Assembly: GCA_000310025.1 (NCBI GenBank)
Contig: FN649741.1
Coordinates: 301,774 to 365,773, forward strand
DNA: 64,000 bases
Direction of reading: 5' to 3'
Origin: Ectocarpus siliculosus
Lineage: Eukaryota; Sar; Phaeophyceae; Ectocarpales; Ectocarpaceae
A program made the position numbers and the translations under genes. Below the pieces are notes generated by a model. That model searched no databases. It worked only from the letters and a program-made list of their open reading frames with translations, and was not told the origin of the DNA. Position 1 is the first letter of the stretch. Every line of letters begins with the position of its first letter. Shown piece by piece: positions 1-38,548 of the stretch.

Positions 1-2
1 AC

Positions 3-2090
3 CATAACGGTCACCGTCAACGTGGTTCGCGAGGGTCGCGCTCTTCCGCAGCTAGCGAAAGTGACGCGTCGGCTTCCGTGGCCGCCAGCAGCTCCAACAG
101 ATCGAATCGAGGCAAACGTGGCAAGAAGCGCTCTGGGTCCAACGGCCGCCGAGAGGAGGTCGCTGTGGAACGCAAGCCTTCGGCGACTAAAAGCGTCAGC
201 AAGGAGGACACGAGTCGTGGCCGCCGTCGTAGCCGGAGTCATAGCAGGAGCTGTAGCCCACGCCGCCGCGGACACTGCCGCGGGCACCGCAGCAGCGACG
301 GCTCGGAGGCACCAGCCTATGAGGATCACTCCCCCGAGGAGATCTTTGACGCAAACCAACCGCACCTGACCACCGATCTTCCACTGGAAGAGCGTCTGGA
401 CCAACCCCTGACAGCCCCGCGTGATGACAGGCAAGTACCGTTGTTGGGTGATGTCGCAGCCAGCGACCACTCATTGATGTCACGCAACAGTGCATTCGTA
501 GGCCATAACGCCCAACCGTTGTCGTCAACGACTGCTCGTGCTCGCCAAGTAGAGATAGACAAGGCTGACGCGCTTGCAGAAGCTGCACGAATCAGAGAGA
601 TCAGTGCGAAGTACATCAAGACGAAGTTTAGGGATATTCGTATACAACCATCGATCCCTTGGCCGGCAAACCTGAAACAGGCAGTGCCGCAGTTGTTAGA
701 TTCTATCAAGGCTGCAGCCTTAGATGTCTTGCAACAGGCTGACCCTTTCATCGATTTTGACAAATCCGATACGTGGGTTCGCGGGTGGGAAAACCCGCTG
801 AAGAAAGCCATCATTAGCGACGTATCCCCAAACAAGCAAACCACTGGTGACCTTATCAGCTCTATCAATGGTATGTTTGTGCAGGTGAAGCAGCGTATGG
901 ACGACGGTATGAACGGAGGAGAAGCTTTCAAGCACCTTCTTCGTCTGATCGCGTCCCACTTCAAGCATGAAGACCGTGGAGACGCCTTGACAACGCTGAA
1001 TGCGTCCGGTGTTCCCAACGGAACTACGTTTGGAGAATTTTTGCGACAGTATCGTACTGCCGTGAACAACATCACGCACTATTCCAGTCTTTTTAGCCAT
1101 AACGAGACTTGGATTGTCGGGATCACAAGGAATAAGATCAACGACCAGTTTTCTGTGATGATGTCTGACTGTTTTCCGGGTGCAAAGCGTACCGCGGCAG
1201 AACCCTACAGTAGTCTGGATGAGATGTGGCGAGTGCTGAATGAGTTCACGACCTCTAAGGTTAAGGCAGAGAATGGCGAGCAATATGCTGCGCTCTCGCT
1301 TAGTGGATTATCGTTGCATTCGCAAGGCGGTAGTCGTTCTCAAGGACGTTCGACGACGCAATCGCAGCAGCCTTGGAGCTCCCAGGGAGCACGTGGCAAA
1401 TCGGTCATGCGTGTTAAGGCAGAGCCAATTCATTATGTGTTTTGTGTTAGCTACGATGCTTGGCCGCTGGCCACCGATGATCATTGGGAGACAGTGCATG
1501 CTGTTGTTTCCAGTGGTTTCAAACGTCAACTCCCCCCCCTTTGGACACCACTCCTTAGGACTAGAGCTGACCGAGCACAAGCGTTCAGCGCGAATGCTGG
1601 CCGTTGTTTAAACTGTCACGGGTCTGGCCACTCCATCAAACACTGTGAACAGCCTTTCACCAATGCTAGTGGTGTACTGAACCCAGATTTAGGTGCACTG
1701 ACTGATGGTGATGACATGTTTCGCCTGTGGCAAGAGCGCTTGCGGTCCTGGAGGACTAAGCCTGCGACTGCCACAACACACGGCTCACGCAACTCGAATG
1801 GCCAACAAAACCGGCGCCGTTCCCACAGACCAGCTCATAGAGTTCAATACGCTGGTAACGCTCCAAACCCGCAACAATACACTCAGACGTGGCATCAACC
1901 GCCACCACAGGGCCTGCTGCAATCTAGTGCACCAGCCCAACAGCACACATTGGTAGCATACCAGCCTCATGCAGGTACTGCTCCAGCGTCTGCCACACAC
2001 GCGCAGCCGGCGTTAAGAATCAACAGCCGACTCCCCGTAGACTCCAACCCAAATGCCCGCACTCCTGGAACGTATAATGCTGGTAACTGA
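3..2090 (+). CDS. gag: Gag polyprotein of the Ty3/gypsy element (5' partial)
   Basis: The frame is already open at base 3, so the start codon lies upstream; the GTG near 78 is not a credible eukaryotic start. The N-terminal 100 codons are very basic and rich in Arg/Ser pairs (SRSHSRS-like), suggesting RNA binding. The middle (about 560-1270) is a predicted helical capsid region with the Trp/Phe-rich pattern of retrotransposon gag. A CX2CX4HX4C zinc knuckle (CLNCHGSGHSIKHC) lies at about 1605-1646 and would bind the genomic RNA in the particle. The tail is Gln/Pro/His-rich. The frame ends at TGA 2088-2090, and the same frame continues open directly after it into the NADAR/protease ORF, so readthrough would give a Gag-NADAR-PR fusion. 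Confidence 0.85.
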   Translation, partial: HNGHRQRGSRGSRSSAASESDASASVAASSSNRSNRGKRGKKRSGSNGRREEVAVERKPSATKSVSKEDTSRGRRRSRSHSRSCSPRRRGHCRGHRSSDGSEAPAYEDHSPEEIFDANQPHLTTDLPLEERLDQPLTAPRDDRQVPLLGDVAASDHSLMSRNSAFVGHNAQPLSSTTARARQVEIDKADALAEAARIREISAKYIKTKFRDIRIQPSIPWPANLKQAVPQLLDSIKAAALDVLQQADPFIDFDKSDTWVRGWENPLKKAIISDVSPNKQTTGDLISSINGMFVQVKQRMDDGMNGGEAFKHLLRLIASHFKHEDRGDALTTLNASGVPNGTTFGEFLRQYRTAVNNITHYSSLFSHNETWIVGITRNKINDQFSVMMSDCFPGAKRTAAEPYSSLDEMWRVLNEFTTSKVKAENGEQYAALSLSGLSLHSQGGSRSQGRSTTQSQQPWSSQGARGKSVMRVKAEPIHYVFCVSYDAWPLATDDHWETVHAVVSSGFKRQLPPLWTPLLRTRADRAQAFSANAGRCLNCHGSGHSIKHCEQPFTNASGVLNPDLGALTDGDDMFRLWQERLRSWRTKPATATTHGSRNSNGQQNRRRSHRPAHRVQYAGNAPNPQQYTQTWHQPPPQGLLQSSAPAQQHTLVAYQPHAGTAPASATHAQPALRINSRLPVDSNPNARTPGTYNAGN

Positions 2091-4142
2091 CAGCCCAACG
2101 GCGGCTTGTCGTTACTCCCCGACCCGCCGATGGCAAAACAGGGAGCAGCTAGATATGTGTCGCAGGATGCGCGTATAGTAGGTACGGTCGAGTGTACCAC
2201 TCCTGTTCCTACAACCGACACTTCCGCTACAAGCGGTAGTGCTTCGACCTCATCGGGTGAAGATGGTGTAGCCCACACTCCCGATCACGGCAGCTTCAGC
2301 GCTGTCGTCAATGCATATACCCCAAGGTTAGGAACTCAAGGAGCGACCTGTCTTGAAGGCGGCTCCCCGAGTTTTAACACAGCTCGAGCAGCTTGCACAC
2401 GCGGCAGCTTCAGCGCTGTCGTCAGTAAATATACCCCAAGGTTAGGAACTCAAGGAGCGACCTGTCTTGAAGGCGGCTCCCCGAGTTTTAACACAGCTCG
2501 AGCAGCTTGCACAACCCACGATTACACCACGTTGCCGCCCGCAAACCAGCCTGAACCATTACGTGTTGGCTACACGAATGCAAGGGTCGGTTTGAGGTGC
2601 GGGTACGGAAGGTCGGGATTGTCGAGCATGCCCAAGAGGTCCGCTCAGACGTCCTCGTGGAAGACCGTTAGGACACCTACGTTGTCGACAATACATGAAG
2701 TGTCGCCGGGTTTAGCCACCTCGAGCGATGCTTTGGACATGTCCACTACGTACGGGTCATCGACAGCCTGCGGCGATACAGCCGATGGAACTCGAGACGG
2801 TAATAAAAGTCACTCGCCGCACGGTGAAGCGAGTATGACCGATTGCGTTGAAAGAAATACGCGTCGATTTCCCGTGGTTTGCGATTCGCGGAGTACCAAA
2901 ACTGAGCGGTCCCCAACCGCGACCACGGAGGTGCTGACAACACCGTATTCGGAGGACGCTCCGATTGCGCCCCTCGCTGAACAAACAGCGAAAAACTCGC
3001 GACCCTCGTCAAGGGAGGTCCGTCATGTCTCCAACGTGATGGATTCTAGCGAAAGCACTACAGACTATACACCCCCACCGGGTTGCGCTGTTGGAAGAGT
3101 AGAGGACTTGGGGAAACAGACATCCCCCTCCTCCGCTATAGCTGGTATTCGTATCTACCCTCCTCCTCCGACCGACGCCAGGTGTTCACCACCAGCGTTT
3201 GATCCGAGCAAGGAGTACTGCACACCTGACATGGTGTTGTTCTGGCAAGCCCCGTCGTTTTTCTCGCAATGGACGCCCTCCGTCTTTACTGTAGATGGTG
3301 TGGAATACTCTTGTGGAGAACAATTCTTCGCGGCTGCCAAGGCTCGTCTCTTTGGCGACCAAGATACGTTGCGGCGGATTATGCGTGTTTCTGACCCGAT
3401 TAAACATAAGCGTTACGGACGCCAAGTTAAAGGGTTTGATGAAGCTGTTTGGGAGCGCGAGCGTGAAAACGTGGTGCGTGTCGCCTCCTACTACAAATTT
3501 TCGCAAAATCCCGCTATGCGACAACATCTTTTGGGCACCGGCGACAAAATGCTCGTCGAAGCTAGCCCATTCGATGCCATATGGGGCATTGGACATCGCG
3601 CGGATGATCCTGCTGCAATCCAACCCTCTTTATGGCGGGGCTCCAATCTGCTCGGCAAAAGCCTGCAGGTTGTTCGAGACCTACTCCGAGAGCACGCGCC
3701 GACGCCGATACTTCCACCACAAGTTTCGTCCGACGCTCAGCTCCGGAATACAATACATGAGGTTAACCCTGCAACGCAAGAGTGTATTTCGACGGCTGCC
3801 GCCGAGGAGGCCGCCCCGTCGTCAGGTTACCGCATAAAATCAGCGCATGTTCCAAGGGATCACAGCGCTGAAGTTCTCGCGGTTACGTCCGCTGAGTATC
3901 ATGAGGAAGATCGTGTACCGTTGCTCGCTGAGCATGGTCCTTGCCTCGTAGGTGGTGTTGTTACAGTTGACGACGCTTCATTTACGACTCGAGTCAAAAT
4001 CCACGCTGGGCCAGCCAAATCACAATATGGTTGCGCCGCTCTGCTCGATTCAGGATCACCGGCCACGTTCATCAACAGCAACGCTGTCGGTACCCCTCAA
4101 AGCCATGGGAGCCATCTCAGAGGCTTGCATATCGCACGGTAA
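2091..4142 (+). CDS. Second retrotransposon ORF: variable region, NADAR domain, N-terminal half of aspartic protease
   Basis: The ORF is in the gag frame, separated by one TGA. The first ATG-type start is not obvious, which fits expression by readthrough. About 380 residues are low in complexity and Ser/Thr-rich and include a 38-residue tandem duplication (2289-2516). Residues of about 383-534 (nt 3237-3693) match the NADAR/YbiA-like fold (DUF1768): aromatic FSQW then FTVDG, the GEQFFAAAKA helix with its conserved Glu at 3318-3320, KFSQNP, LLGTGD, LVEASPFDAIWGIG, and NLLGKSLQVVR. Known NADAR proteins act on ADP-ribose N-glycosidic bonds, including guanine ADP-ribosylation, or in riboflavin metabolism. 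At the C-terminus the retropepsin motif LLDSGSPATF (Asp at 4047) appears, but the rest of the protease lies in the +1 frame. Domain identity is sure; its function in the element is inference. Confidence 0.85.
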   Translation, partial: QPNGGLSLLPDPPMAKQGAARYVSQDARIVGTVECTTPVPTTDTSATSGSASTSSGEDGVAHTPDHGSFSAVVNAYTPRLGTQGATCLEGGSPSFNTARAACTRGSFSAVVSKYTPRLGTQGATCLEGGSPSFNTARAACTTHDYTTLPPANQPEPLRVGYTNARVGLRCGYGRSGLSSMPKRSAQTSSWKTVRTPTLSTIHEVSPGLATSSDALDMSTTYGSSTACGDTADGTRDGNKSHSPHGEASMTDCVERNTRRFPVVCDSRSTKTERSPTATTEVLTTPYSEDAPIAPLAEQTAKNSRPSSREVRHVSNVMDSSESTTDYTPPPGCAVGRVEDLGKQTSPSSAIAGIRIYPPPPTDARCSPPAFDPSKEYCTPDMVLFWQAPSFFSQWTPSVFTVDGVEYSCGEQFFAAAKARLFGDQDTLRRIMRVSDPIKHKRYGRQVKGFDEAVWERERENVVRVASYYKFSQNPAMRQHLLGTGDKMLVEASPFDAIWGIGHRADDPAAIQPSLWRGSNLLGKSLQVVRDLLREHAPTPILPPQVSSDAQLRNTIHEVNPATQECISTAAAEEAAPSSGYRIKSAHVPRDHSAEVLAVTSAEYHEEDRVPLLAEHGPCLVGGVVTVDDASFTTRVKIHAGPAKSQYGCAALLDSGSPATFINSNAVGTPQSHGSHLRGLHIAR
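2289..2516 (+). repeat. 114-bp tandem duplication in the second retrotransposon ORF
   Basis: Two nearly identical units start at 2289 and 2403 (GGCAGCTTCAGCGCTGTCGT...), period 114 bp, so the reading frame is kept and 38 residues are repeated. The copies differ at only a few positions, around 2316 and 2430. This indicates a recent slippage or unequal exchange within a region of low constraint upstream of the NADAR domain. Confidence 0.93.
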
Positions 4143-6606
4143 CTCACGTTCTTGGGGAGGTTTTGGTAAATCCGAGTCTCTTCAGACGTCTGATACAGTC
4201 CGTCTGAGTGTGCAATTTTTCCACGGTGATACGCCTTCGGCTTCTCTTGCCGTTTGGGCGCACATCGTCCCTGCAAACACCATGCAGTTTCCCATCCTAT
4301 TGGGACGCGATAGTTTCATGCGATTTAACACTCGCACGTACCGTATGTTGCCTCCGAGGCCACTGGACAATCGCGTTTTTGGTGAATATACGCTTGCCCA
4401 CCAGGATGATTCTGGTGCGGTCGCGTATGTGCCCGATTTCACAGCCCCGGCGGACCAATTCCAGCTCCGTTATGCAGGGCCAACGGGTACTTCATTGTCA
4501 GACGACCACCAAATGATTGAAGTCAACTTGGTGCGTTCCAACGGTACACCGGCTCTGACCGGTCAATACCTTGTCGACATGTTGCCTGATGTTTCGTCGA
4601 ACGAAGAGATCTTTGTCTCCGACGGGCGTCAGTTTGTGCCGCTCGCGGGCGCTGCAGAACTTGAGCCAGGAGACTTGCTCGGTACTGCTGCCGCCCCGCT
4701 GATGCGCGTCCCGGTAGAGAATTTAGAACAACAGTTTAGTGACGAAGCTGACACTTCATGTTCGGTGCCTGGACCTATTTTGGGTTCTACCGAGGATAAC
4801 GCGGACAGGACCGTCGATCCGCAGGTGCGTTGCCACGATCCCTTCGTGCACAACCTACGATCCACCGATCTTCCTGTGCCGGACCCAGGGAAATCACCCC
4901 CTGCGGCCCCTGCCCCAGCTCACACTTCGCCCTCGCCGCCACCACAGCATGTGATGGAGCGGTTGAGCGCTGAACAGCGAGTTAGCTTTGAGTCATTGTG
5001 GAATCGCTTGCCGCCTCACCTGAAGTTGGTTAAGTTTGATTTACACGGTCCTGGTTGGTCACCAGAGGTCATCACAGAACTTGGTGATCTTTTGCATGAT
5101 TTCCAAGACGTGTTTTCCACATCCTCGACGGATTTAGGGTCCTGTTCCCTGATGCCGTTTGAGATCAAAGTACCTCCGGATTGTCCCCCGGTGACGTCCA
5201 AACCGTACCGTATGAATCCTTTGGTTGCGAAGCAAGTCGATGCCATTTTGGACCAGTATCTAGCTGCTGGCCTAATTCAGCACTCGACCTCTCCTTATTC
5301 CAGCCCCATCGTGGTTATACCAAAGAAGTCTGGTGGAATACGCATCACGGTTAACTTCCCATCCCCCCGAGTCGACGAGATTCTAACGAAACTCAACAGA
5401 GGTTCGATTTTCTCGTTATTCGATTTCACGGGTTCTTTCCACCAGATCACTGTCCACAAGGACACTATCCCCCTTACGGCCTTTGCGACCCCCACTCGTT
5501 TGTTCGAATGGCTCCGCATGCCGATGGGTGCTAGCCAATCCGCAGGCCACTTTGTAAAAGTGATTAACGAAGTAATCAAAGGACTCGATGGAGTCGAGGC
5601 ATACCTCGATGACGTCGTTGTTTTTGACGAAGGCCCACTGCAGCATGTCCGTAATATGCGCACGCTCTTCGAACGGTTGAGAAAGTACGACCTCAAACTT
5701 TCTCCCTCGAAAGCCACCATCGGTACCACCAAGGCTGACTTCTTGGGGCACACCATATCTTCGAAAGGTGTCCTCCCCAACGCCCGTAAAGTAGCCGCCC
5801 TGGCAGGTATGCCCATGCCGACGACCGTCAAGCAACTCAGGTCACTCATGGGTGGTCTGAGCTACTACCGACGTTTCCTCAGAGACATGGCCAAGCGTGT
5901 GAAGTCCATTACGCACTTGCTCAAAAAAGGTGTTCCCTTCGCTTTCACGAGCGACATGGAAACAACTGTTCGCAGCCTACTGGCTGAGCTCGCGAAACCG
6001 CCCATTTTAGTGTTTCCTGATTGGGACGCTATTGCGGACGGTACACGCCCTTTACGTCTTTGCTGTGACGCCAGCTCCGACGGTCTCGGCGCCGCGCTGG
6101 AGCAAGAGCAGAAAGACGGCTCGGTACGGCCGATCGTTTTCATCAGCAGAGCCACGCTCGACGCTGAACGCAACTGGACCGCTCTCGATCTCGAAGCAGG
6201 AGCCGTTGTATGGGCGATCAAGCGTCTCCGCGAATACCTTCGTGGCACACACTTCCGCATCTATTCCGACAATAAGGCGCTGGAAAGTTTGTCAAAAATC
6301 AGCGAGCACAACCCACGCGTCCAACGCTGGATTGAGTTCCTTGAAGCATACAGCTACACGTTGGAGTACCGACGAGGTGCCTCCAACGGAAACGCTGACA
6401 TGCTGTCTCGTCTGCCGATTGAGCCTACTGCCGCCGACATCAACGGTAACAGTCGTTTGACGTCCCCAGAAGACGTTGGTGTGTATCTGATCCGAGCGAC
6501 AGGTCACGCACCACCCGGACAAACCACGCCTGGCGTTGGTTTGGGGTGGGCTGGCGCCCCCGAGCGAGAACGCCGCTTTGGGTGGGCTACCCCTCACTTC
6601 CGATGA
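4080..6606 (+). CDS. pol: Pol block: C-terminal protease half, reverse transcriptase, RNase H
   Basis: This frame is +1 relative to the NADAR ORF. It is formally open from 3952, but sequence resembling protease starts only around 4080-4110 and carries the second retropepsin signature ILLGRDSF at about 4297. A Pro-rich spacer follows (about 4870-4950). Reverse transcriptase spans about 5190-5840: SPYSSPIVVIPKKSGGIR, FDFTGSFHQI, TPTRLFEWLRMPMG and the catalytic YLDD at 5602-5613. RNase H spans about 6050-6290: CDASSDGLGAAL with catalytic Asp, the LDLEAGAVVWA helix, and YSDNKALESL, followed by NADMLSRLP. It copies the element RNA into cDNA in cytoplasmic particles. It stops at 6604-6606 and must be joined by another +1 change to the following linker/integrase frame. 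Confidence 0.93.
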
Positions 6607-7288
6607 TTTTGCGGATTTTCGCAAACACGGGCCTCGAATGAGGATTGACGACCTTGATGCTCCTGCAGGAGAATTCGTCGCTCGTGTTTTTCCGTACGTC
6701 AATGCGCGAGGACCTTTGCGACACCTTGCGGACGATCGTGCATTGTCTTGCACCGACCACTCCGTATTTGCTGTGCCTGAGGTTACTTCCGCTGCAACCC
6801 AGAAAATACAGGGCGCTGTGCCGGCACTCCGGTCTTCAGCTTCTCCTGTTGTGTCTCCGATGAGACCATTGTATAGGGACACCGCCACGGTTTACGGACC
6901 GTCTGCGCGACCCCACACGGATACAGCTGCATTTGCGCTCCCTGTCCACGACACACAGACCGCCGACGATAACTCTCGGTTGCCCCCTGTCGTGTCTCAT
7001 GCGACCGCAACTGTCGACGCCGGCTCCCACTCTGATCGTTTGGATGCCGCCGACTCATTGCCGCCGCCTTCGACCTCTCGGTTGCAACCGCATCGTATTG
7101 ATCCGTCGGAACTGATCTCTACTCGTACGCGTCGCCGAACCGCGGCTGCTGCGGGTCAGCCTCAACCCGATGTAAACTACGGTTTCGGTCCTGATTTGTC
7201 GATCCCCCCACACGTTCCGCGTGCAGGCGCTTCTCGTCGTCAAACACGAGTGACACCAGCTGCCACCACGCCTGAGCCTGCTGTCTAA
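6536..7288 (+). CDS. Pol linker region between RNase H and integrase, unknown function
   Basis: An ORF of about 250 codons in the +1 frame relative to the RT/RNase H block, overlapping its last 71 bases. It reads as coding sequence from about 6600 (DDFADFRKHGPRMRIDDLD), then becomes Ala/Pro/Thr/Asp-rich and probably disordered. No catalytic motif is visible. It ends in TAA at 7286-7288, and the same frame continues into the integrase after that codon. In related Ty3/gypsy elements a tether separates RNase H from the integrase zinc finger, so this is most likely that tether, unusually long. It could also hold a small lineage-specific domain that I do not recognise. Confidence 0.6.
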   Translation: MVWGGLAPPSENAALGGLPLTSDDFADFRKHGPRMRIDDLDAPAGEFVARVFPYVNARGPLRHLADDRALSCTDHSVFAVPEVTSAATQKIQGAVPALRSSASPVVSPMRPLYRDTATVYGPSARPHTDTAAFALPVHDTQTADDNSRLPPVVSHATATVDAGSHSDRLDAADSLPPPSTSRLQPHRIDPSELISTRTRRRTAAAAGQPQPDVNYGFGPDLSIPPHVPRAGASRRQTRVTPAATTPEPAV

Positions 7289-9670
7289 CCTGTCCCAACG
7301 GTGCCTATAGCGCCGCCGGAGACGGTTACCGACGCCCCTACGGGTCCTCTGTTGGGTTTGTCACAACCGGCTGCTGCAGCTGGTAAGGCAACGCCCGCAG
7401 TGGATTCCATGGTCCTCAATCCTGCAGAGTTAGAATTCCGTGAGTCCGTCGAACGCTACACGCGTGCCGATTGGGCGCGGGAACAGCAGAAAGAGCCGGT
7501 GTGTGAAGCCACCATCCGCTACATTCTCCTCAAACGCCCTCAGAGTCTACCTGTCGATTTCTTTGCCAGAGTGTCATATCACTCCAGGCATAGACCCTCG
7601 TTGGAGGATATTCGAGAGCTTGCAGATAAAGGACGCCTCGTCACTGACGATGGCCTTTGCCTCTTGGTACGAAAGAATACCAAGCCCCCGGTCTCTTCTG
7701 ACCGTCCCGGAGGACGAGCTGCACGTCTGTTGAATGACGAACCCACTCGTATTTACGTGCCCATGTTAATGCGACCTTGGGTCATGCAAGCTTGTCATGC
7801 CAACGCCCTCTGCCACCTTGGTACCGCTCGCACGCTCAGCTTGCTTGAGAGGTTTTACTGGTGGATTGGGATGAGTATCAGTACTCGTTGGTGGATTCGG
7901 CGATGTTTGAAATGTCAGGCCCGCAAAACTGCGCGCCAGACTATTCGCTGGCCGATTCTCACGATCCCTCTGCCTTCGGCACCAGGGGTCGCGATTAGCG
8001 TCGACTATTTTGGTCCGCTTCCCACAACTCCGCGAGGTTTCTCGTATATTTTGCTATTCACTGACCGTTTCAGTCGGAGAGCCAATATGTACGCAGTGAC
8101 TGACGCCGAGTTCACAGCTGAAGGTACAGCTGACGTCCTTGTCAATAAATACATGCCTGTTTGGGGATGCCCCCTCAGCATTCTTTCTGACAATGGATTG
8201 CAGTTTTGCTCCAAACTGTCGGTTGCCATCCTAAAATTGCTACGCGTCCGAAAAATTACGACGAGCGCGTACCACCCTAGCGGCAACGGAGGAGTTGAGC
8301 GCGTGAACCACACCATGGCCCAGATGCTGGCGATGGTTGTGAACGAACGACAAGATGATTGGGACATTCATCTCCCTCATGTTGAATTCGCGTACAACAA
8401 CTCCGTTAGCGCTGCAACAGGATTGGCGCCCAATGAGGTGCATATGGCGCGCCTTCCCAGGTTTCCACTGACCGTTTTTGACAACATTTACGCTCGTGGT
8501 CACCAGTCGCTTGCCCGCGATCAGCTCGAGTATTGCAACCTTGCCGCCGATCGGCAACGGCGCTCCTACGAGCTAGTGCGTGAACAACACGCACTCACAG
8601 TTTCCCGTATGGAAAAACGGAACTCGAAACTGTCTGATGCCTTACATAAACTACCTGTTTACGCTACCGGTGGTTGGGTGTGGGTCTACAACCATTTGGC
8701 TACCATCCGCCAAGGTGCCAAACTCACTTCCAAGGCCCGCGCAGACGCTGACTCCCAGGTACTCAAAAAGAAGCTGTCCTTGAATTGGACAGGTCCTTTT
8801 AAAATCCTCGCAGTCGGTCCTTGCAACAAGGCTTCCGATGGCAGCCCGGTGGCTGACAAGCTCCTGTATTTGGATCTTCCCTCCGATATGCCCGGAGTGG
8901 ATGCCAAGCGCCGAGTTTCTGTCGCTCGTTGCAAACCGTGTGCGAACCCACACGATAGTGACGACATGCCTCGGTTCTTGCCTGCAGGCCTCACGCAGTA
9001 TGTTCTCAACAACTACACGACGAAGTCTCCGCCGTACCATGTTACCGCGGACGATGTTTCGGCGCCTGTCCGCAGGCTCGAGGTTGAGAAAATCACGGGA
9101 CACCAGTCGGTTCGAGGACGTGGCGGCGTTATCGCAGTCATGTACGAGACCCACTGGAAAGGTCTTCTGCGGCCCTCGTGGGAACGAGAAATGGACCTCC
9201 AACACTCCCGAAAACAGATTCTTCTGTATTGGGCTGGTACACCCGACCAACACCGGCAGACTAACCGTCTGTATCGTCGCATGCGCATTGGCGCAGCGGA
9301 ACGTGAACTGTCTCGCATCAAAGGCGAGCGGTCCTCGTCGCCCGGGTACGAATATGTTCCCCGCGATGTTTGGGCCCGCCGTTTTCGCAACACCGTGCTG
9401 CCTGTAGGCGCACACTTCTGGTACAAGGCTCAAGACGCTCTATGGTGGCTAGGGAAAATCTCCGGACATACTCCGACTACAAACGTCTTCGTCGTTCGCT
9501 TCCTGGATGACCCTGGACCTGTCAAGATCACCCTCTCCCCTTCGCGCTACACGACAGCTTTGGGAGCTGTTTGTGGTTCTTGGTGCCTTCAGCTGCACCG
9601 AAGTAGTCCCTTCATGCGAGGTATCTTACGCAATGTAGACGAGTCGCGTGGTACGGCTATAGATGCCTGA
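7289..9670 (+). CDS. Integrase with HHCC zinc finger, DD35E core, GPY/F-like module, chromodomain and Tudor-like C-terminus
   Basis: The frame is open directly after TAA 7286-7288. The zinc-binding HHCC module is visible (ACHANALCHLG, later CLKCQ) at about 7790-7920. The catalytic triad is Asp 8003-8005, Asp 8189-8191 and Glu 8297-8299, with 61 and 35 residues between them, the DD35E spacing. NWTGPFKI at about 8790 is the GPY/F-like module. A chromodomain lies at about 9085-9215 (EVEKITGHQ ... YETHWKGLLRPSWE), expected to bind methylated histone tails and steer integration to heterochromatin. A further module at about 9405-9560 (GAHFWYKAQDALWWLGKI, VVRFLDDPGP, SRYTT) looks like a Tudor/Agenet-type reader. 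The protein inserts element cDNA into chromosomes. The ORF ends TGA at 9668-9670. Confidence 0.92.
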   Translation, partial: PVPTVPIAPPETVTDAPTGPLLGLSQPAAAAGKATPAVDSMVLNPAELEFRESVERYTRADWAREQQKEPVCEATIRYILLKRPQSLPVDFFARVSYHSRHRPSLEDIRELADKGRLVTDDGLCLLVRKNTKPPVSSDRPGGRAARLLNDEPTRIYVPMLMRPWVMQACHANALCHLGTARTLSLLERFYWWIGMSISTRWWIRRCLKCQARKTARQTIRWPILTIPLPSAPGVAISVDYFGPLPTTPRGFSYILLFTDRFSRRANMYAVTDAEFTAEGTADVLVNKYMPVWGCPLSILSDNGLQFCSKLSVAILKLLRVRKITTSAYHPSGNGGVERVNHTMAQMLAMVVNERQDDWDIHLPHVEFAYNNSVSAATGLAPNEVHMARLPRFPLTVFDNIYARGHQSLARDQLEYCNLAADRQRRSYELVREQHALTVSRMEKRNSKLSDALHKLPVYATGGWVWVYNHLATIRQGAKLTSKARADADSQVLKKKLSLNWTGPFKILAVGPCNKASDGSPVADKLLYLDLPSDMPGVDAKRRVSVARCKPCANPHDSDDMPRFLPAGLTQYVLNNYTTKSPPYHVTADDVSAPVRRLEVEKITGHQSVRGRGGVIAVMYETHWKGLLRPSWEREMDLQHSRKQILLYWAGTPDQHRQTNRLYRRMRIGAAERELSRIKGERSSSPGYEYVPRDVWARRFRNTVLPVGAHFWYKAQDALWWLGKISGHTPTTNVFVVRFLDDPGPVKITLSPSRYTTALGAVCGSWCLQLHRSSPFMRGILRNVDESRGTAIDA

Positions 9671-9674
9671 TAGC

Positions 9675-9772
9675 ACTGTGGCATTGTTTTCCTTGTTTTA
9701 TGTGTATGTATATGTATGTGTATATGTTTGTGTGTTACATGTTTGTGTTTATGTATGTTTGTCTGTATGTTT
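9675..9772 (+). repeat. TG/TATG-rich simple repeat
   Basis: Degenerate TGTATG/TGTTTG runs directly after the integrase stop codon, in the 3' untranslated part of the retrotransposon. Confidence 0.8.
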
Positions 9773-10125
9773 CCAGCTCGCCCTCTCGATCTATTTTCGA
9801 GACTGGCTATTGCTTCTGTATGTTTCTAGCTCGCCCTCTCGATCTATTTTCGAGACTGGCTATTGCTTCTGTATGTTTCTAGCTCGCCCTCTCGATCTAA
9901 ATTCGAGACTGGCTATTGCTTCTGTATGTTTCTAGCTCGCCCTCTCGATCGATTTTTGAGACTGGCTATTGCTTCTGCATGTTTCTAGCTCGCCCTCTCG
10001 AATATTTCGAGACTGGCTATTGCTTCTACATGTTTCTAGCTCGCCCTCTCGAATATTTCGAGACTGGCTATTGCTCCTTTATGCTTTCCGCTCGCCCTCT
10101 CAATCTCTTTGAGACTGGCTCTTGC
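9768..10125 (+). repeat. Seven-copy 53-bp tandem repeat with a conserved small hairpin, retrotransposon 3' region
   Basis: The unit contains CTAGCTCGCCCTCTCGA, a short loop, TCGAGACTGGCTATTGCTTCT and then TGTATGTTT. Within each unit CTCGA pairs with TCGAG. Later units change in the stem together: CTCGAATATTTCGAG in units 5 and 6, CTCAA/TTGAG in unit 7, and a G-T wobble (CTCGA/TTGAG) in unit 4. The array lies in the untranslated 3' region of the element RNA. Long open frames through it are a by-product of the 53-bp period and lack coding character. Confidence 0.9.
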
Positions 10126-11015
10126 TTTTGTGTTGCGTACTTTCGCGCCCCGTTTGTCACTTCTCGGTCGGTTGTCGAAAGTTTTCGCTCCCCTTTACCT
10201 ATTTTTCAATGCGACCTAGGTTCGTCATTAGTTGCGGTGACACCCAAATTTGGTGCATCATTTAACTCCCCACCCTATGGTTTGCTTTGCATATTTTGTG
10301 GTCCAACGTTCCGTCAGTGCTTCTATTGCATGCCACGGCCAACGTGTTCCATCTTGGTACTTTCTTTAGCATTTTTCTTCATACAATTGGCCTTGACGTA
10401 CACGTAGGATTGTTTTCCTCGCCCCACCCCGATCGCAAGCACGTTGTATCGTGACATGCGAACGTTGTTTTTGGCGTTGGTTCCTGTCCTTTTCTTTGGC
10501 CGTTGTTTACGTTCCCCGGAAACCCCCTCTTTCCCTGCTTTTCTCGATTTTGGTCGACCCCTAGCGGTTTTCCATGTCGTTTGATCCTTTGCAGGCTCGG
10601 TTTTCGTTTCTTATTCTTTATGTTTACATTTCAGCACTCGATCGCATCGTAGCCCCCCTTCCCGTAAGGTTCTGGCTTACTTGATTGCGTATTCGATCGG
10701 TTCATTCGTGCGAGATCGTTTGTGATTTTCTCTTCACGATTTCGTTACTTCGTGTTATGGTCTTTTCGGTTCGGATGTTTTGGTTATTTTTCGCACCCAT
10801 GTGCCTTTTTCCGATTTTATCCACCGACTTTGCCGCCCCGGCTTCTGTGTTTTCTTCTTTCTTGGTTCCGCTTCTTTGGTTTGGTTAACGGAGAGGTGCG
10901 GGTGAGGGTTTTGAGTTGTCGTATCTTCGATCCATCCCGCAATCCTCTTGATTGACTAGAGTCCCTCCGAGGTTTGCTTCTGTATCTGCATCTACGTCCA
11001 CTCAGGGTGGGCTAT
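10126..11015 (+). other. Pyrimidine-rich non-coding 3' region of the retrotransposon
   Basis: About 0.9 kb of T/C-rich DNA on the plus strand, without credible ORFs. A purine-rich stretch near 10889-10912 (GGAGAGGTGCGGGTGAGGG) and a weaker one near 11003-11011 are the only candidates for a polypurine tract. Confidence 0.5.
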
Positions 11016-11324
11016 TGTTATGGTATTTGGAGGTAGACATGTGATCGTGGTTGATCATGGTTATTTGGCGCCGTCGGATGCTAAGACGTGACGTCATGCT
11101 AGATCAGGGCTTTATGCCGAGACATGTGCCCTTCTGTTCAGTGTGTGCGTACAGGTGATCTATGATCGCGTGTGCGTGGGATATTGTGAGTTGGCTTGGA
11201 AAGCGTTAATCAAGAGAAAGAGAACAACGGAAAGCAACAACAACCTGCTACTGTGGTCGGACAAGAGAGTTCCACACAGCTCTAAGGTGATTGATTCTGA
11301 AGGAAGGGGTCAAATACCATTACA
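11016..11324 (+). repeat. Possible 3' LTR
   Basis: A 309-bp stretch begins TGTTA and ends TTACA, the TG...CA rule with a short imperfect inverted repeat. It lies between the pyrimidine-rich region and AT-rich flanking DNA whose composition changes around 11330. The 5' LTR is outside the window, so identity to a second copy cannot be shown; start and length are guesses. Confidence 0.35.
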
Positions 11325-23259: not shown

Positions 23260-26200
23260 ATGGATACGTCCGATCTGAATGTCGCGCTCGTAGGGGACAG
23301 CGTCTTAGATGACCACTACTGGCTCGATCACCCTCCAAACGACGTTCGCGCACAAACTGAACGGACTCTCAAGATCGCCTACCCGGATCGGAGCATTCGA
23401 GTGGACAATTTCGCTGTCGATGAATCGACCATCTCGTGTGTCTTACGAGGGCGTGCCCCAGCAGGTGTGTCGTGTGTCGGCGGTGTACGTGAGGGAAAGG
23501 GGTGTTTTCTCCCGTTCTCTTTTCAGCAGTCGGCTCTGAAGATGTGCAACAACAGTCCTACATAGGTATTCGTTGTCGTCATCGTTGTACAAGATCAAAT
23601 GACATAGTTAGGCACCAGGGTCGTAGGGATGCAACATCGTGATTGTGATACATACTTTTATGATGAAAGTAGGTGTGTGCCCTTACTTGCTGTAGCATCA
23701 AGATGTTAATTTCTCGAGCTCACACGTGTCACGTGTGGTTTATGGAGACTGGCTACATATGCAGGTCGCTAGGCCGCACAAAGGTGAGTGCTGCTGCTGC
23801 TGCTGCTGCTGCTGCTGCAACAACAGCGGTGACGATGGGAAGTCCTTTGTCCTTTGTTTGACCAGCCCACTACAGGAATGGCCGAAGAAAGGCGAAGATG
23901 GAGCCGTACCCGGTGGAAGAGGATGGCGTGGTGAGACCATTGAAGCTCTTGCGTGAAGCCAAACCTACGCACGTGGTAAGTGGGTGCCTCGGCGCAACGT
24001 GCACGCTCACTCTACGCGTTGTTAACAAGGAGGGTTCATGGTCGCACCTGTCTACCTGCTGGGATTGTGCAGACCGCGGAAAACGCCGAATTGTTTGTGT
24101 TTCCATCGCTGAACATCCCAAGGAGTCAACCGCTCCCATGCCGCAGGCCGGGAGTGTTCATGTGTAGGATCCAAGGCTGCTCTTTTTTATGGCACTCTGG
24201 CTGGCCGCCATTTTTGAAACGAGGCTTGGTAAACTTCGTACGCATATGGAGCCTGAAAGCCCGGTTGCTCTTCAGACGATCACAGAACCCGGCCTGTACA
24301 TTTCGTCCCGACCGCTGTGCGATCATTGCAGGTGCTGAGTATCGGAGGAAACGATGCCCGCATCCGTTTCTTGCAATCCCGCAACCCGGATGTGGTTACA
24401 GAGCTCATGATAACCGACGGCTTCGTGGCCAACCTCCGCCGGGTGGTGGAGACTATTCGGGCCGAGATAACACCCAACATCATCCTCGTGTATGTGTGAG
24501 TCTCGTTGAACATGGAAGTCTGTCTGTTGGCATCCTGTGGTATCGTTGGTATCAGCAATATTTCCCGTTCCAAGTTATTTTCGATCGCGACGTTTTCCTC
24601 AGAGCAAGGAACCGATGGCTACTGCTACTATGTATTAAAGCCCTCCTGTAGCCCGGCGGTCATACACGTTTCCTCTCACTTTCGTTGGTTCGTCAGATAT
24701 ATGCCCGAGTTCAAGACTTTCCCTCTGCTGAGCATGCTGCCACCGGCACGGATCCTACAACGCCTACTGGTAAACTTCTCCAAGTTTTTCATCGAGGTGA
24801 ACATCATCAATCGGATATGTGGAGGGCGCGGCTCGTTTGCCGTGTTTATGATTGGAGAAAGTAGGCTACGTACTTGATTGTATGCCGATGTTTTGCTCTG
24901 TCGTGCAGGGTTTGACATCCGTTTCTCGCAATTGCTGCGATCTGGGATACTTGAACTCGCAAGCCAGGCTTCTAAGAACACCTGTTATTGGTGAAAGATC
25001 GTGCTCAAACCGCCGCAAACGTTTTTTGGCGAGCGGTGCCGCTCAACCGTTGACCTTACTCCGCCATGTGCGGTGCTTGTAAAGTCGATCCCAAGCCACT
25101 AGGCCCGAGCACCAACTCGTTGCATGTTTTCCCAGGCTGACTCAGCCCAAGCGTTCGTGGTCCTGGCGTGTTTGTGGAGGCGAGTTCATCAGGTTTCAGA
25201 GAAAATACGATTCTTGTTGGGACTGCTGGGGGGCTATCTGTGTCTGCCGGATATTGACGAAAGGGCAGTCCTCCAAAACTATACCCGGCCGCAGCTTTAC
25301 GCCCGTCCAAATCACAAACCGCCCTTCCAAATCGAACGTGCCTACTATGTTTGTTTTCGACGCTCTCCCAGTGTTTGTGTCCATGGTTTGCGGACGACCA
25401 GTCTGTCAAAGCTCACAGGTATGTGTAAGTCCACACGCCCTCAACGACACCCGAGAGGCGAAACGCCTTGATTGCATGCACAACTTATCCACTCATACAC
25501 TCATTATTACACGCGTTATTGACACGATGCCAACGAAAGCCAGTCGATTATTCTGGTTGCCGAGGAATTCTCGTATGCCCACCTAACACGGGACTGCTGT
25601 GTGTTGTGTCTATCCCTTGACGCCGGCTTGTTGCGCCCAGCTGGCTGTGGAGTTCCACCTGCCGATCATCGACCTGTCGAGGACCTTTGACCCCAACAAC
25701 AAGAAACACTACGGATCCACGCCAATCGAGCCGTCAAACGTTTCAGGGCAGTTCATCGCCGACCTTGTCGCGCAGGTGAATTTACGGCAATAGACCACTT
25801 GCAACAGGACCCGCCGCACCAAAAAAATTGCTCTGGGCGGAGGGGAGGTTCTGTGGGGGATATTTTCAAGAAATCATAACTTTTTGCCCCGGGATCGGAT
25901 TTTCATAAAACAATTTGCGTTGGATAGCTGACGAGCTGAAGTTTTTTCTGCGATTTTTGTTTATTTGTTTTGGAAACGAGGCACAAAGATAATGTTATTC
26001 TTAAACGAAAATCAACCCTTTCCCCCGAACTAAATTTATATTTTCTCGAACAGCCTGGGTTATTCAACAAAAACCCAAGATATTCGTCCCCCCGTTTTCC
26101 AAAAAACAAGGCAAAAATCACCAAAAAAACTTCAGCTCGTTAGCTATCCAACGCAATTTATTTTATGAAAATCCGATGCCGGGGCAAAAAGTTATGATTT

Positions 26201-26759
26201 CTTGAAAATATCCCCCACAGAACCTCCCCTCCGCCCAGAGCATTTTTTTTGGTGCGGCGGGTCCTGTTGCAAGTGGTCTATACACGAAGACTTGTTCAGT
26301 TATCGGGCGACGCAATGGAGAGAATGAAGGGCATCAAACACTTTCGCCCGTAGACATACTATGTGTGATTTCGAAGCCGAGGGTTGGAGGTTGCCAAGAG
26401 CATAGAACGCCGCACGCTGCCATAGCCCAGTCCGACTTCAAGTCTAGAAGCTCGTGTACTTCATCATGCGAAGTTGATTTTCCGAATTTTCACGTTTGCC
26501 CAGCTTGAAAGAGTTAGTCAAGTGCTGCACACACAGCAGTCAAAGATGTCTGAATTGAACCGTTGAACAACAGGTGCTGGCGCGATTCCGGTTCGGCGAA
26601 GAGGCTGGAGGAAAGATCTTCTCCGGCACTGGGGGCGAGTTGGTGGTTCATGACCTCGCCCCCGATGCCGCTGCAAGGTTCTCGTACGGGCGAGAGCTGC
26701 AGGCGTTCTTCGATCGCAAAGCCGCCGAGAAGCCGGCTACCTCCTGTGTCATTGGATAA
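23260..26759 (+). CDS. SGNH/GDSL-type hydrolase, six exons
   Basis: Exons by splice signals and phase: 23260-23464, 23866-23975, 24332-24495, 24697-24769, 25641-25775, 26574-26759; all junctions keep frame and give about 290 residues. The start MDTSDLNVALVGDSVLDD carries the GDS block I with catalytic Ser. PTHVVLSIGGND across exons 2/3 is block III (GxND). IILVYVYMPEF, LPIIDLSRTFDP and HYGSTPIEPSNVSGQFIADL follow, as in other SGNH hydrolases; the usual DxxH pair is not obvious near the C-terminus, so the catalytic His is uncertain. A small exon may be missing between 24770 and 25640. There is no clear leader, so it is probably cytosolic. The last residues are CVIG. Intron 1 has a CTG microsatellite and the last intron a MITE. 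Substrate unknown (esterase/acylhydrolase class). Confidence 0.75.
23790..23819 (+). repeat. CTG/TGC trinucleotide microsatellite in intron 1 of the SGNH gene
   Basis: About nine to ten perfect CTG units, just inside a GTGAGT at 23784 that is not used in the phase-consistent model. Confidence 0.9.
25791..26280. mobile_element. Foldback MITE with about 185-bp terminal inverted repeats and TA target duplication
   Basis: The left end TA-GACCACTTGCAACAGGAC (25791 on) is repeated in reverse complement at the right end (GTCCTGTTGCAAGTGGTC-TA, to 26280). The inverted repeats match almost base for base for about 150 bp and more loosely to about 185 bp, leaving a centre of roughly 110 bp without coding capacity. 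The TA flanks suggest Tc1/mariner-type mobilisation in trans. It sits in the last intron of the SGNH gene, starting 15 bp after the donor at 25776. Confidence 0.92.
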
Positions 26760-31500: not shown

Positions 31501-34500
31501 ACAGAGAATTACAAGAAAATTCAACACCGCCCACGAGCCCGTGAACGAAAATATGATCGAGGCCAAACAAGAAACACACTTGCGCATGTGCTACGGCAGC
31601 GACTTGTTCACCTTGCGCTTGGCCTCTCTCTCCAGGCGCATCTGTTCCTGCCGAGCGGCCTTCTTGGCCATCTTCTCCTTCAACATCGACATGTGCTCGT
31701 CGAACATGCGCTTGCTGTCATCCATCGACAAGCCGAGTCCAGCAGGCCAAGATGACAATTCAAGCAGGCGTTATTTCCGGACAGCACGCGGTATCCCATA
31801 ACGCGAAACACACCGCCGCGACCAACAACAAGAGGGGGAGGGGGAGGCGAAAACAGAAAACACGTTAGGAGGAAAGGTCAGAAACACCACTGTATGGGAA
31901 CAACCCCCAAGCGCGAACACACAATGGGAGCGTTGGCTATCTGCTTTGTTTGTCTACACGTGAACAAGAAGATTCTAAAGCTTTCTTTCGACGTGAACGA
32001 CTTCCAAGAAAAGGGTATGTACCGAGAGAGAATCGTCAACTAAATAGTGCTTCGCGTGAGCCCTCTACGCGGGTCTCTTGTATTGCCACGTCACAACAAA
32101 CGAACGATGTTAGGATACCAAAGGTACGCCGGTGAGAGCTGAAAGCTGGTGTCGGTAGAAACCGAACGGCTGCTCTTCTGTGTCCTACAAGGCAACCCGG
32201 GGTACAACCGGCGCAAAGAAGCGCAACCGCAGCATTGCTCCTCGTTAGCAAAAATCCGATCTAATTCGCTCACCAGTCGTCCTCCTCCATCTCTTTCACC
32301 ACGGAGTGCTTCCCGATCTTGTCCCGGCCCTGTTCCCAATCGATGTCGACGTGATCGGAGCGGTAGAAGTAGTCCTCAAGAAGATCGCCAAACTTCTTCT
32401 CGCGACGCTCGCGCTGGCGCTCCTGTTGACAGACAGTAGCAGCAGAGTGTTGGTCAATACTTTCGGCAACTGAAGAGATCACATTACACCAAACATGGGT
32501 ACAGCAGTACATGTTTTCGCAGACAGCCAGGCATGACGAAATCAAACGATGATTAATAATTGCATGCAGAGTGTTTCGTGGGCACGATCATTCTCCACGA
32601 CCAGCTAGCTGCGCCAAGATTTCCAAGTTTTCCCCACCAAGCAAAACGCACACGACCGACGTCGCTGGCAACAATTCATGCACACCCGTTCTAGGTGTAA
32701 GACAAATCAATTTCTCTCGAGATAAGATGCGTGAACCAAAAGTGTCAGCCTGTCTTGGTGGACGACTTGATCGAAAATAGCGAAAGAAACGTTTACATGG
32801 CGGCGACCGGTTCTCGGAACGGAGCTCGCTATATAGTGACTGCGGCGTGTTGTGGTGCCATGCAGCCCGCAAAAAGGCAAACACTAGGTGGGTGGGCGAC
32901 AAAGACGAACAGGCCCGATAGGCGGGATGGGAGAGAGCCGGCAGCGCCTCGTTTCCCTCGCAGAACTTGCAATCGCGTGCCCTGCCAGGAGGAACGAAAA
33001 TGTGGCATCTACCAACTAGCACACGCTACACAACGTCGGGTTTAATATTTGCAAGAATCGCTGCTGGTATGATATCCATGTGGAGCTCACTTGAAAAGCT
33101 TTCCACATGACATGTTTCTTCGCCTTCTTCCCGTACAAAAACTCAACTTGGTACGAGCAACACAGGAAAAAGAACACAAGGCGAGGCGAGCCAGGCCCAC
33201 CACAGGCGTGCGAGACCAACAAAAACAATAAACCATGGCCACGTTGCACCCTACACGGAAGCGGGGGGCAAAAACGCCAACGGAACAGCCACGGGCAGCA
33301 CAGCAGTCCAACCATTGATAATCAAACTCACCTCTTCCTTGCGCTTGACTTGGGCCTTCTCAACCAGAGCTTCGAAGACGATGCCGAGGTTGACCGCCCT
33401 CTTGTCCAGGATCTCCTGGAACACCCTCTTGGGAGGGGGGTCGTCGGCCGCCTTGTCCTTCTTCTTGTCCCCCCTGTCCCTACGGTCCCTCCTGCGGGAC
33501 CCCCTGCCTCCTCCTCGGCCCCTGCTCCCGCTCCTGCTGCGGCTCCTGCTGCGGCTCCTGCTATCGCTGCGGCTGCGGCTCCTGCTGTTCCTGCGCCTCC
33601 TGTCCCCGCTCCGGCTGCGGCTCCTGCTGCGGCTGCGCCCTCTCCTGCTGCCATCCTCACTGCCGTCCTTGTCCTTACCCTTCCCGTTCGCCTTCTCCTT
33701 GCCGCCGTCGTCCTTGTCCTCACCCTTGCCCTTGCCGGCAGCGGCGACGGCCTCCTTAGCGGCCTTCTGCTTCTGCTCGTACTCGGCGCACTTATCGTCC
33801 TCGTGGGCGAGAAGGGCAGCCTCGAACTCGAGCTGCTTCGTCTCCGGCGTCACGACAAACTTGGCCTCCTCCATGAGGGCCTCCACGCACCTCTTGTCGT
33901 CGCGGAACTGCCGCCGAAGGTCGGCCACGATGTCGTCGAAAACGTCCCGGGCGCCGCCGGGCTGGTCGTCCATGGCCTTGTAGGCCTCCTCCTCCTCGAT
34001 CGACCGCTTCAGGTCCTTCCAAGTCGTGTCCGCCGTGATGGCGTTCTCCTCCACCATGCCCTGCAGGAACTCCTTGAAGTCCTCGCGGCGGAGGCGGTCC
34101 TGCCTCCTCCGCTCGTCCCTCTCCCTCGCCTTGCGGTCGTCCTCGGCCTTGCAGAGCTTGGTGACGAGATCGTCCAGCAGCCTGCGGCGGTCGTTGTCTT
34201 CGAGCACGTCCGTCTCTGCGGGGGCCTTGCGCTCGATCACGTCCCTCGAGTCGCGCCAGGTGGTCCGGAAGGTGATGCCGAGGGACAGGTACTCCTCCTC
34301 GAGGAACTCCACGAAACGCTCGGAGGCCAGCTTCTGGGCGGCACGACGGTCCTCCTGAGAGTGACAAGACAAGGCACGGGAAAATATGCAGGCCACGTCA
34401 TGTAAAAACATTTCGATCCAGTGGTTGCAGAGTGTTCCTTCCGAAGTACACATTCGATTGTGACTTCGATAACAACTCACATGTGTCGAGAAAATATTGC

Positions 34501-37500: not shown

Positions 37501-38070
37501 CTGCTGCGGCGCCGGTTGCTGGGCCGAAACCGGCGGAGGAGCGCCTCGGCTCACAGGCGGGGAACTAAAGCTCGACGTCGCACGCTGAGCCGGGGCAGCG
37601 CCAGGCGGCGGGGTGAACCCCAAACCAGCACGTCCCGGTGGCCTCGTGGGGGGTGCACCTCTCGGTGGCGCCCCGGGCGGAGCCCCAGGTGGGGCACCAG
37701 GCGGAGCGGTTGGCGGGGCACCAGGCGGAGCAGTTGGTGGAGCCCCAGGCGGAGCATTTGGCGGGGCCGCAGGCGGGGCCGCAGGCGGGGCCGCAGGCGG
37801 GGCGCCCGGAGGAGCCCCGGGTCTAGCCCCTCCCACCGAAGGGGGCGGCTTCGTGGACGCCGGAGTCGCAGCAGGGGCGCGTGGCGCCTGCGAGAACCGA
37901 GAGAGGGCCGCATCCTGAAGGCCGCCCGGTGCGCGCTGCTGCTCCTGCACCGTCATGCCGGCGGCGACGGCCTTGTCCGACCCTAGGCCGCCCGCTACCG
38001 GCTGAACCCCCTTGTTTTGGGTCATCCAGGCCGGTAGGACCATGCCCCTACCACGCCCGCCGCGACCTGC
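28517..38070 (-). CDS. PRP40: PRP40-like pre-mRNA-processing factor: WW domain, FF repeats, RS segments
   Basis: Phase-checked exons (minus): 36573-38070 (with 135 N at 36798-36932), 35948-36045, 35172-35391, 33332-34354, 32274-32422, 31612-31714, 30912-31045, 29674-29845, 28517-28894; about 1,200 residues. The N-terminus has a Gly-Arg stretch and MVLPAWMTQ, a Pro/Ala/Gly-rich region, then one WW domain (WTEHKAPDGRPYYYN ... KPVELKTP). FF repeats follow: AFVEMLKE/PETQRYCQSDPRW, GFMKMLAQ, RFVEFLEE, FKEFLQGM, a degenerate fifth interrupted by an RS segment, and FGDLLEDYF. The tail is Lys/Arg/Ser-rich (HKKSKKRHRSRSPDS, KKNKKDKKDK). PRP40 bridges U1 snRNP and the branch-point factor SF1 in early spliceosomes, in the nucleus. 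The first exon is unidentified; Met at 38041-38043 is a possible start, but acceptor CAG at 38071-38073 suggests an upstream exon. Confidence 0.88.
36798..36932. other. Assembly gap (135 N)
   Basis: Undetermined bases inside the long N-terminal exon of the PRP40-like gene. The reading frame that is right before the gap differs from the one needed after it, so the gap length is an estimate. Confidence 0.98.
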
Positions 38071-38548
38071 CTGCACACCCAGGACGGGCGGCAAGCAAAG
38101 TAAGGAGGAGACGAGGATGGGAGGGAACGGACGGTGGCAAAACGGACGGCGGTAGGGGGGTAGGCACGTGAGTATCTGCGTATGGCAGCGCTTATATATT
38201 TGTTCTGCCCCCAATGTGGCATCGAGGCAGCTTTATCGTGCCTCCACTGAGGCCACTGCTGCTGTGCGTACATGGAGCTAGGCACGGAGCACGCGGGAAT
38301 GGATGGATGTCTTGTATCGTATCCAGTTGTCCCGACAAACAGCAAATGAAAATGATTTGTGGATCGATATGCACACTGTACTCAGGCCGTGTACACGACA
38401 CGCAAGATGTGTACTTGTCTGACTGACTGTATTCTGCAGAGCACATGATTCGTTCGGTCCATCGCGGATAGCGAGCGAAGCAGCCACTGGACGAGGAGAG
38501 GAAGACCCAGACGATACCAATTGTATGACCCATGGTCAAATCATTCAC

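Follow-up and report, generated by a model that had tools for sequence, protein, structure and literature searches.

What is a NADAR (YbiA-like) domain doing inside the polyprotein of a Ty3/gypsy retrotransposon, how is it made, and where did it come from? These questions are raised by a locus of Ectocarpus siliculosus that lies in a window of 64,000 nt, i.e. the whole stretch of DNA analysed here (assembly GCA_000310025.1, contig FN649741.1, positions 301,774 to 365,773 of the forward strand), in which the initial annotation, made from the letters alone, had placed such a domain at 3237..3693. This placement was borne out by the Pfam profile search that the annotation had called for: in the open frame 2091-4142 (plus strand), residues 384-533 (nt 3240..3689) matched PF08719 with an E-value of 8.6e-47 and 159.9 bits (cut-off, 35.1), a whole domain of the YbiA type covering profile positions 2-163 of 163. 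All the motifs cited in the annotation are present in the translation of this frame. The window NADAR also matched 8BAU (phmmer, E-value 3.8e-18) and E. coli YbiA, 2B3W (sequence search, E-value 2.4e-10), the former being taken as the Phytophthora nicotianae protein because its residues fit the numbering used in PMC11543638. Both belong to the same family as the element NADAR, and 8BAU served for the comparison of active-site residues, but they are stand-alone proteins whereas the element NADAR sits in a polyprotein. An AlphaFold2 model built from seven sequences had a mean pLDDT of 70.6, with residues 103-135 mostly below 50. Judged by the sequence matches, a chance resemblance is out of the question.

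The element that carries the domain is 14,229 bp long and starts 2.9 kb to the left of the window (G000:C16:298869), of which it occupies positions 1..11324 on the plus strand. Its 5′ LTR (L031:1096-1404) and its 3′ LTR (11016..11324; TGTTAT...ATTACA, then CTAG) are identical at 309 of 309 bases, and a 4-bp target duplication, CTAG, is found on both sides of the element. Because the two 309-bp LTRs are identical, the insertion is young. The 3′ part of gag, an open frame continuing from L031:3343, fills positions 1..2090 and ends in TGA; a CCHC zinc knuckle, CLNCHGSGHSIKHC, could be read from its translation at 1605-1646. The in-frame UGA that closes gag (2088..2090), in a UGA-C context kept across families, forms the boundary with NADAR-Pol and is followed by a fast-evolving linker (2091..3239), the NADAR domain and, 0.8 kb past the start of the latter, the aspartic protease active-site motif ALLDSGS (4038..4058 by motif scan, within ALLDSGSPATF at about nt 4038). 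That is, NADAR and the protease motif do share a single open frame, as annotated initially, but gag is cut off from it by the TGA at 2088-2090. No Pfam protease domain matched in the element, and the protease is known by its motif alone. Further downstream on the same strand are the reverse transcriptase (RT; PF00078, 5347..5757, E-value 1.7e-21), RNase H (PF17917, 6043..6351, E-value 9.7e-32), the zinc-binding domain (PF17921, 7757..7930, E-value 4.7e-13) and the core (PF00665, 7979..8278, E-value 1.4e-9) of the integrase, and a chromodomain-like stretch (9080..9232) for which PF00385 gave an E-value of 0.01 and 16.2 bits, under the cut-off of 25.1. The order protease-RT-RNase H-integrase (by Pfam, the protease by motif), the TG...CA ends of the LTRs and the target duplication are as in Ty3/gypsy elements (Metaviridae), in agreement with the class given initially to the polyprotein, the RT trees holding the families of this genome only. 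The 3′ non-coding part contains 7.1 copies of a 53-bp tandem repeat (9762..10131, detected by TRF), the unit of which includes a short inverted repeat, TCTCGA...TCGAGA.

The Pol of the window copy is broken while its NADAR is intact: the frame shifts twice, once downstream of the protease motif and once in the interval from RNase H to integrase, a stop lies at 7286-7288, and 12 RT codons of sister copies are missing. Some of the Pol indels may be assembly errors, and longer open frames exist in other NADAR copies of the genome. To the left of the window, upstream of gag and in the gag frame, a Ser/Pro-rich frame of 653 codons (L031:1381-3342) is closed by a TAG, which is also TAG in three of the five readable other copies and GAG in the remaining two (a sixth copy could not be aligned). 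Within the linker, TRF detected a 114-bp tandem duplication (2288-2513); in two other copies of the same family (family A below; L003 and L009) the UGA lies 114 bp nearer to NADAR, fitting one duplication unit. Elsewhere in the window, a long inverted repeat at 25790-26281 (192-bp arms, 92% complementary, 108 bp apart) could be a foldback element or else a hairpin giving rise to small RNAs, and a host PRPF40-like splicing gene with WW and FF domains occupies 33254-38232 on the minus strand. The exons of this gene (about 33.3-38.2 kb) are 97% identical to an Ectocarpus sp. 13 AM-2016 protein over most of the stretch searched; since the translation of the frame in 36358-38232 has a run of X, a run of N must lie there. 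Together with the cellular NADAR gene of the host (see below), this identity places the host in Ectocarpus or very close to it; a rubisco search, made to the same end, gave no match.

The statement of the initial annotation that no such Ty3/gypsy element was known turned out to be wrong, as a NADAR-retrotransposon fusion belonging to the Gypsy-12_Ec32 lineage has been reported from Ectocarpus sp. 7 (Dinatale et al. 2025, PMC12477816). A retrotransposon lineage with NADAR is therefore already described in print and the fusion is not new; what was not found in print is the conserved UGA, the estimates of selection, the count of active-site residues across copies and the link to a host gene. The likeness of the window element to Gypsy-12_Ec32 is drawn from the published description; the Gypsy-12_Ec32 lineage has a C-terminal chromodomain, to which the PF00385 match of the window element, under the cut-off, may correspond. 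The words readthrough, read-through and stop codon are absent from the main text of PMC12477816, and no other paper on NADAR in retrotransposons was among the matches listed in a literature search. The oyster Tx1 LINEs with a NADAR-like ORF1, mentioned in the same report (PMC12477816), also have NADAR in a retrotransposon, but they are non-LTR elements and the domain is divergent. Likewise, animal plus-strand RNA viruses are described that join NADAR and polymerase in one polyprotein, as here, but these are RNA viruses and their NADARs are of another lineage (PMC9503650). Other domain partners were seen in database proteins, namely ADP-ribosylglycohydrolase (P0015 and P0016), a macro domain (P0017-P0020), and NUDIX and winged-helix domains together (P0011).

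Given that the host possesses a cellular NADAR gene (see below), the domain could be a neutral passenger, i.e. a host exon caught by this copy. It is, however, present at no fewer than 150 NADAR-coding places in the genome (150 of 230 candidates were scored with PF08719, and all 150 were over the cut-off). For at least 74 of these 150 NADARs, an RNase H follows on the same strand at a distance of up to 12 kb (1.4-2.6 kb in 72 cases); among the matches listed, no NADAR is preceded by a same-strand RNase H, and in four cases one lies on the opposite strand. The pairing used the 150 scored of 411 RNase H candidates, 74 of which were paired; with 150 of 230 and 150 of 411 candidates scored, NADARs without a paired RNase H are not countable as partnerless. 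From the best-scoring 150 of the 230 candidates, 70 copies were studied (30 loci plus 40 of the other 120), and these form seven families, A to G, with 54-80% NADAR identity between families, the window copy belonging to family A. Two single-member clusters, L069 and L070, resemble frame-scrambled copies of families B and C and were excluded from the residue counts, leaving 68 copies.

Nine positions are ADP-ribose contacts or have been tested by mutation in NADARs (PMC11543638, P. nicotianae numbering). The residues matching those of 8BAU are kept at all nine in the window copy, and in the 68 copies they are kept in 67 (E43), 64 (K50), 66 (K75), 68 (R79), 67 (W89), 67 (R93), 68 (E125), 66 (D130) and 67 (W133) cases. 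K75 makes no ligand contact, and its counterpart is described as dispensable for catalysis (PMC11543638). The mark of the YbiA subfamily is Glu, not Asp or His, at position 125, plus E43 and K50 (PMC11543638); all three are in the window copy and, as counted above, in 68, 67 and 64 of the copies, respectively.

Selection was estimated by maximum likelihood, since pairwise dS between families is mostly saturated, using one copy per family picked without stops in the stretch. For NADAR, ω was 0.077 over 143 codons, with lnL of -2783.1 when free versus -2998.1 at ω = 1, a cost of 215 log units; for RT-RNase H, ω was 0.025 over 364 codons, and fixing it at 1 costs 830 log units. NADAR thus evolves faster than RT-RNase H, and the dN/dS comparison across copies that the initial annotation had proposed points to strong purifying selection on the domain. 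The linker, at 22-44% identity between families, is far below the NADAR domain in conservation, the latter reaching 54-79% in the same comparison. At the level of sequence, NADAR is hence common to seven families, under purifying selection and with its active-site residues kept; being placed in gag-pol and maintained by selection in all of them, it is a component that the element makes use of, rather than a stray exon captured from elsewhere.

The protein trees of NADAR and of RT-RNase H, the latter built from families of this genome only, give the same family order, support being weak (46) at one node of the NADAR protein tree. In a tree of NADAR codons, the position of family E does not correspond to that in the RT tree. 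Because the two protein trees agree, the fusion is old, and one acquisition before the families split is the simplest reading of the trees. The lineage is also not limited to the copies of this genome, since in P0001 and P0003 to P0008 (55-72% identity) a protease-like motif could be recognised by eye behind NADAR. Two ways in which the initial annotation could be wrong had been named in it, namely the lack of a significant NADAR match and a captured host exon in this copy only. Neither corresponds to what was found, with an E-value of 8.6e-47 for PF08719 in the first case and, in the second, at least 150 places, seven families, active-site residues kept, purifying selection and agreeing trees. 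The neutral passenger is refuted for the lineage, and we give it practically no credence.

As to the source of the domain, Dinatale et al. 2025 proposed a bacterial one, the blastp matches outside Ectocarpus being almost only bacteria (PMC12477816), whereas our trees put brown-algal cellular genes closest. In an 87-row tree, the elements and five stramenopile cellular genes (the brown-algal P0028, P0038, P0042 and P0078, plus P0036) were split from the bacterial rows (95/89), and the same split was obtained with a longer alignment that included the host's own gene (96/93), in which the elements did not form one clade. P0056 of Chrysoparadoxa, also a stramenopile, grouped among bacterial and other rows in the 87-row tree, and AU tests rejected neither alternative (p 0.348 and 0.343 with 87 rows, 0.308 with the longer alignment). 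A motif before the domain, FDxxxEY, is found in seven of the eight element rows of this genome (the remaining row begins too far downstream to include it) and in all six brown-algal genes. Among the 16 database rows labelled as element, a label assigned by eye, seven have the motif before the domain, with EY in five and TY in two; P0022, P0023, P0030, P0043, P0098 and P0141 are short and no protease motif was seen in them, nor in P0009. The same pre-domain motif occurs in 9 of the 13 bacteria, with VI or VV instead of EY, and in 11 of the 32 other rows, as VI, VV or, in Chrysoparadoxa, VY, so that the EY form is absent from the 13 bacteria and the 32 other rows.

The closest kin of the element NADARs in the trees are the brown-algal cellular NADAR genes (96/93, with AU tests excluding no alternative), and our best guess is that the element NADAR shares ancestry with a brown-algal cellular NADAR gene. 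Direct transfer from bacteria, as put forward in PMC12477816, seems less favoured by the best trees, while P0056 and the AU tests speak for caution. A viral source was considered and rejected: in 15 IMG/VR loci, identity in the best tblastn segment did not exceed 49%, whereas the brown-algal genes reach 51-58% and most of the other listed proteins 47-61%, a loose comparison as the alignments are different. The cellular NADAR gene of the host (G000:C24:2125206-2127066, minus strand; L122) was read as four exons, and its highest identity, 92%, is to P0028 of Ectocarpus sp. 13. Its product has an N-terminal Cys/His-rich stretch that is common to P0028, P0038, P0042 and P0078 (Ectocarpus, Pylaiella, Scytosiphon). 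A stress-induced Ectocarpus NADAR (DUF1768) gene with two predicted introns, Esi0017_0056, has been described (PMC7922944).

How, then, is a domain translated that lies behind the stop codon of gag? In all seven families the end of gag is TGA followed by C, and UGA-C is a leaky stop context. For families A to E, 26 of the 30 loci with upstream sequence align at the site (four do not), and TGA is present in all 26, in the NADAR frame in 17 and shifted out of it by indels in nine. Family F has TGA in three of four upstream stretches, two of them in frame (the fourth stretch is unalignable), and family G has it in its sole stretch, out of the NADAR frame. The linker, compared in one copy per family picked without stops, is open over 291-443 codons in the chosen copy of each of six families; in some of the copies not chosen it is interrupted by stops. 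Its first in-frame Met falls at codon 14 in family A, 354 in B, 37 in C, 221 in D, 41 in E and 32 in F, that is, no conserved Met was found behind the UGA in the linkers of six families, one copy each. Because UGA-C is kept in seven families and no Met is conserved, Pol, NADAR included, is probably made by readthrough of the UGA. Family B is a case in point, as its 353 codons open before any Met would make little sense unless translated through the UGA.

Alternatively, NADAR-Pol could be expressed by splicing, from an internal promoter or by re-initiation. A 3′ hairpin behind the stop is the usual helper of readthrough, and a 3′ structure behind this UGA is not supported beyond coding constraint. 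A conserved RNA hairpin had been a candidate and was dropped. Each of the seven families does allow a six-base stem in which 5 or 6 of the 6 positions pair, but per family between 489 and 4128 of 5000 synonymously recoded sequences reach as many pairs; the energy stands out in families A and E only (18 and 21 of 1000 recodings), and in six of eight sequences the hairpin has no clear advantage in stability over its synonymously recoded versions. Moreover, Tca2 of Candida albicans, another element and one in the abstract of which NADAR is not named, has the same layout with a single UGA between gag and pol, and this junction directed no readthrough in a yeast reporter (PMC2194720). Weighing against these routes are the common frame of gag and Pol, the UGA-C in 7/7 families, and the linker that is open in the chosen copies with its Met unconserved. 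In addition, while the UGA is kept in 26 of 26 alignable loci, the in-frame TAG upstream of gag in family A is a sense codon, GAG, in two of the five readable other copies. We therefore consider a route other than readthrough unlikely.

A NADAR made by readthrough, and so placed in Gag-Pol, would be packaged. Gag would be translated as far as the conserved UGA-C, and a minority of ribosomes would pass the UGA to yield Gag-linker-NADAR-PR-RT-RH-IN; the NADAR would enter the particle in Pol amounts, and presumably be released by the protease. Inside the particle, or where the element integrates, it would cleave ADP-ribose from guanine, another base or an end of the element RNA or cDNA, and ADP-ribosylation by host enzymes or stress would thereby be undone. 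The NADARs assayed on guanine-ADP-ribose were active, the oomycete one included (PMC11543638, PMC11125620), and viral NADARs have been proposed to counter ADP-ribose-based defence or to serve RNA repair (PMC9503650); de-ADP-ribosylation in vitro is not always equal to protection in cells (PMC11125620), and an N-glycosidase activity on riboflavin intermediates has been ascribed to YbiA as well (PMC9503650). By analogy with the assayed enzymes, we infer that a particle-borne ADP-ribosyl hydrolase shielding the nucleic acid of the element is likely. The full reading of the locus, i.e. a recent, defective copy of a Ty3/gypsy lineage whose Pol starts with a NADAR that would be made by readthrough, packaged and active in de-ADP-ribosylating the element's nucleic acid, is in our judgement evenly poised between right and wrong.

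The same conserved active-site residues could also serve RNA processing or act on small NAD/ADP-ribose metabolites instead of ADP-ribosylated bases. RNA ends, NAD caps, signal nucleotides or another N-glycoside would then be candidate targets, the RNA intermediate being processed or a host signal lowered. Processing of the RNA intermediate was suggested by Dinatale et al. (PMC12477816), and soluble ADP-ribose derivatives or RNA-repair products have been proposed as substrates of viral NADARs (PMC9503650), but the activity on guanine-ADP-ribose of the NADARs assayed (see above) argues for the bases, and we regard a metabolite or RNA-processing role as possible rather than probable. Still less probable, and to our minds quite doubtful, is a role as an ADP-ribose reader that would bind ADP-ribosylated chromatin or proteins and steer assembly or integration. 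Such a role would draw on the fact that binding and catalysis share one pocket, and the integrase of the element has a chromodomain-like tail, albeit under the Pfam cut-off; chromodomains are thought to steer integration or assembly from the other end of Pol. What speaks against a reader is that E125 is kept in 68 of 68 copies; in the E. coli C7 enzyme the Asp at the equivalent position is required for hydrolysis (PMC11543638). This residue also contacts the ribose, so that its conservation would still be compatible with a reader.

Hydrolysis is the function that we prefer. In its most specific form, the proposal would be that particles of the lineage contain a nucleic-acid de-ADP-ribosylase encoded by the element itself, which would be made within Gag-Pol by UGA readthrough, share ancestry with a brown-algal cellular NADAR gene and counter host ADP-ribosylation of the element's RNA or cDNA; we put it forward tentatively and with more doubt than confidence. 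Residue conservation and selection show that the domain is used, and readthrough of the conserved UGA is its probable mode of synthesis. If the de-ADP-ribosylase reading is true, brown algae would have an ADP-ribosylation defence against retroelements. Moreover, if the particle does carry an active hydrolase, ADP-ribosylation of nucleic acids would be a real pressure on brown-algal retroelements, and this would point to an unknown host enzyme.
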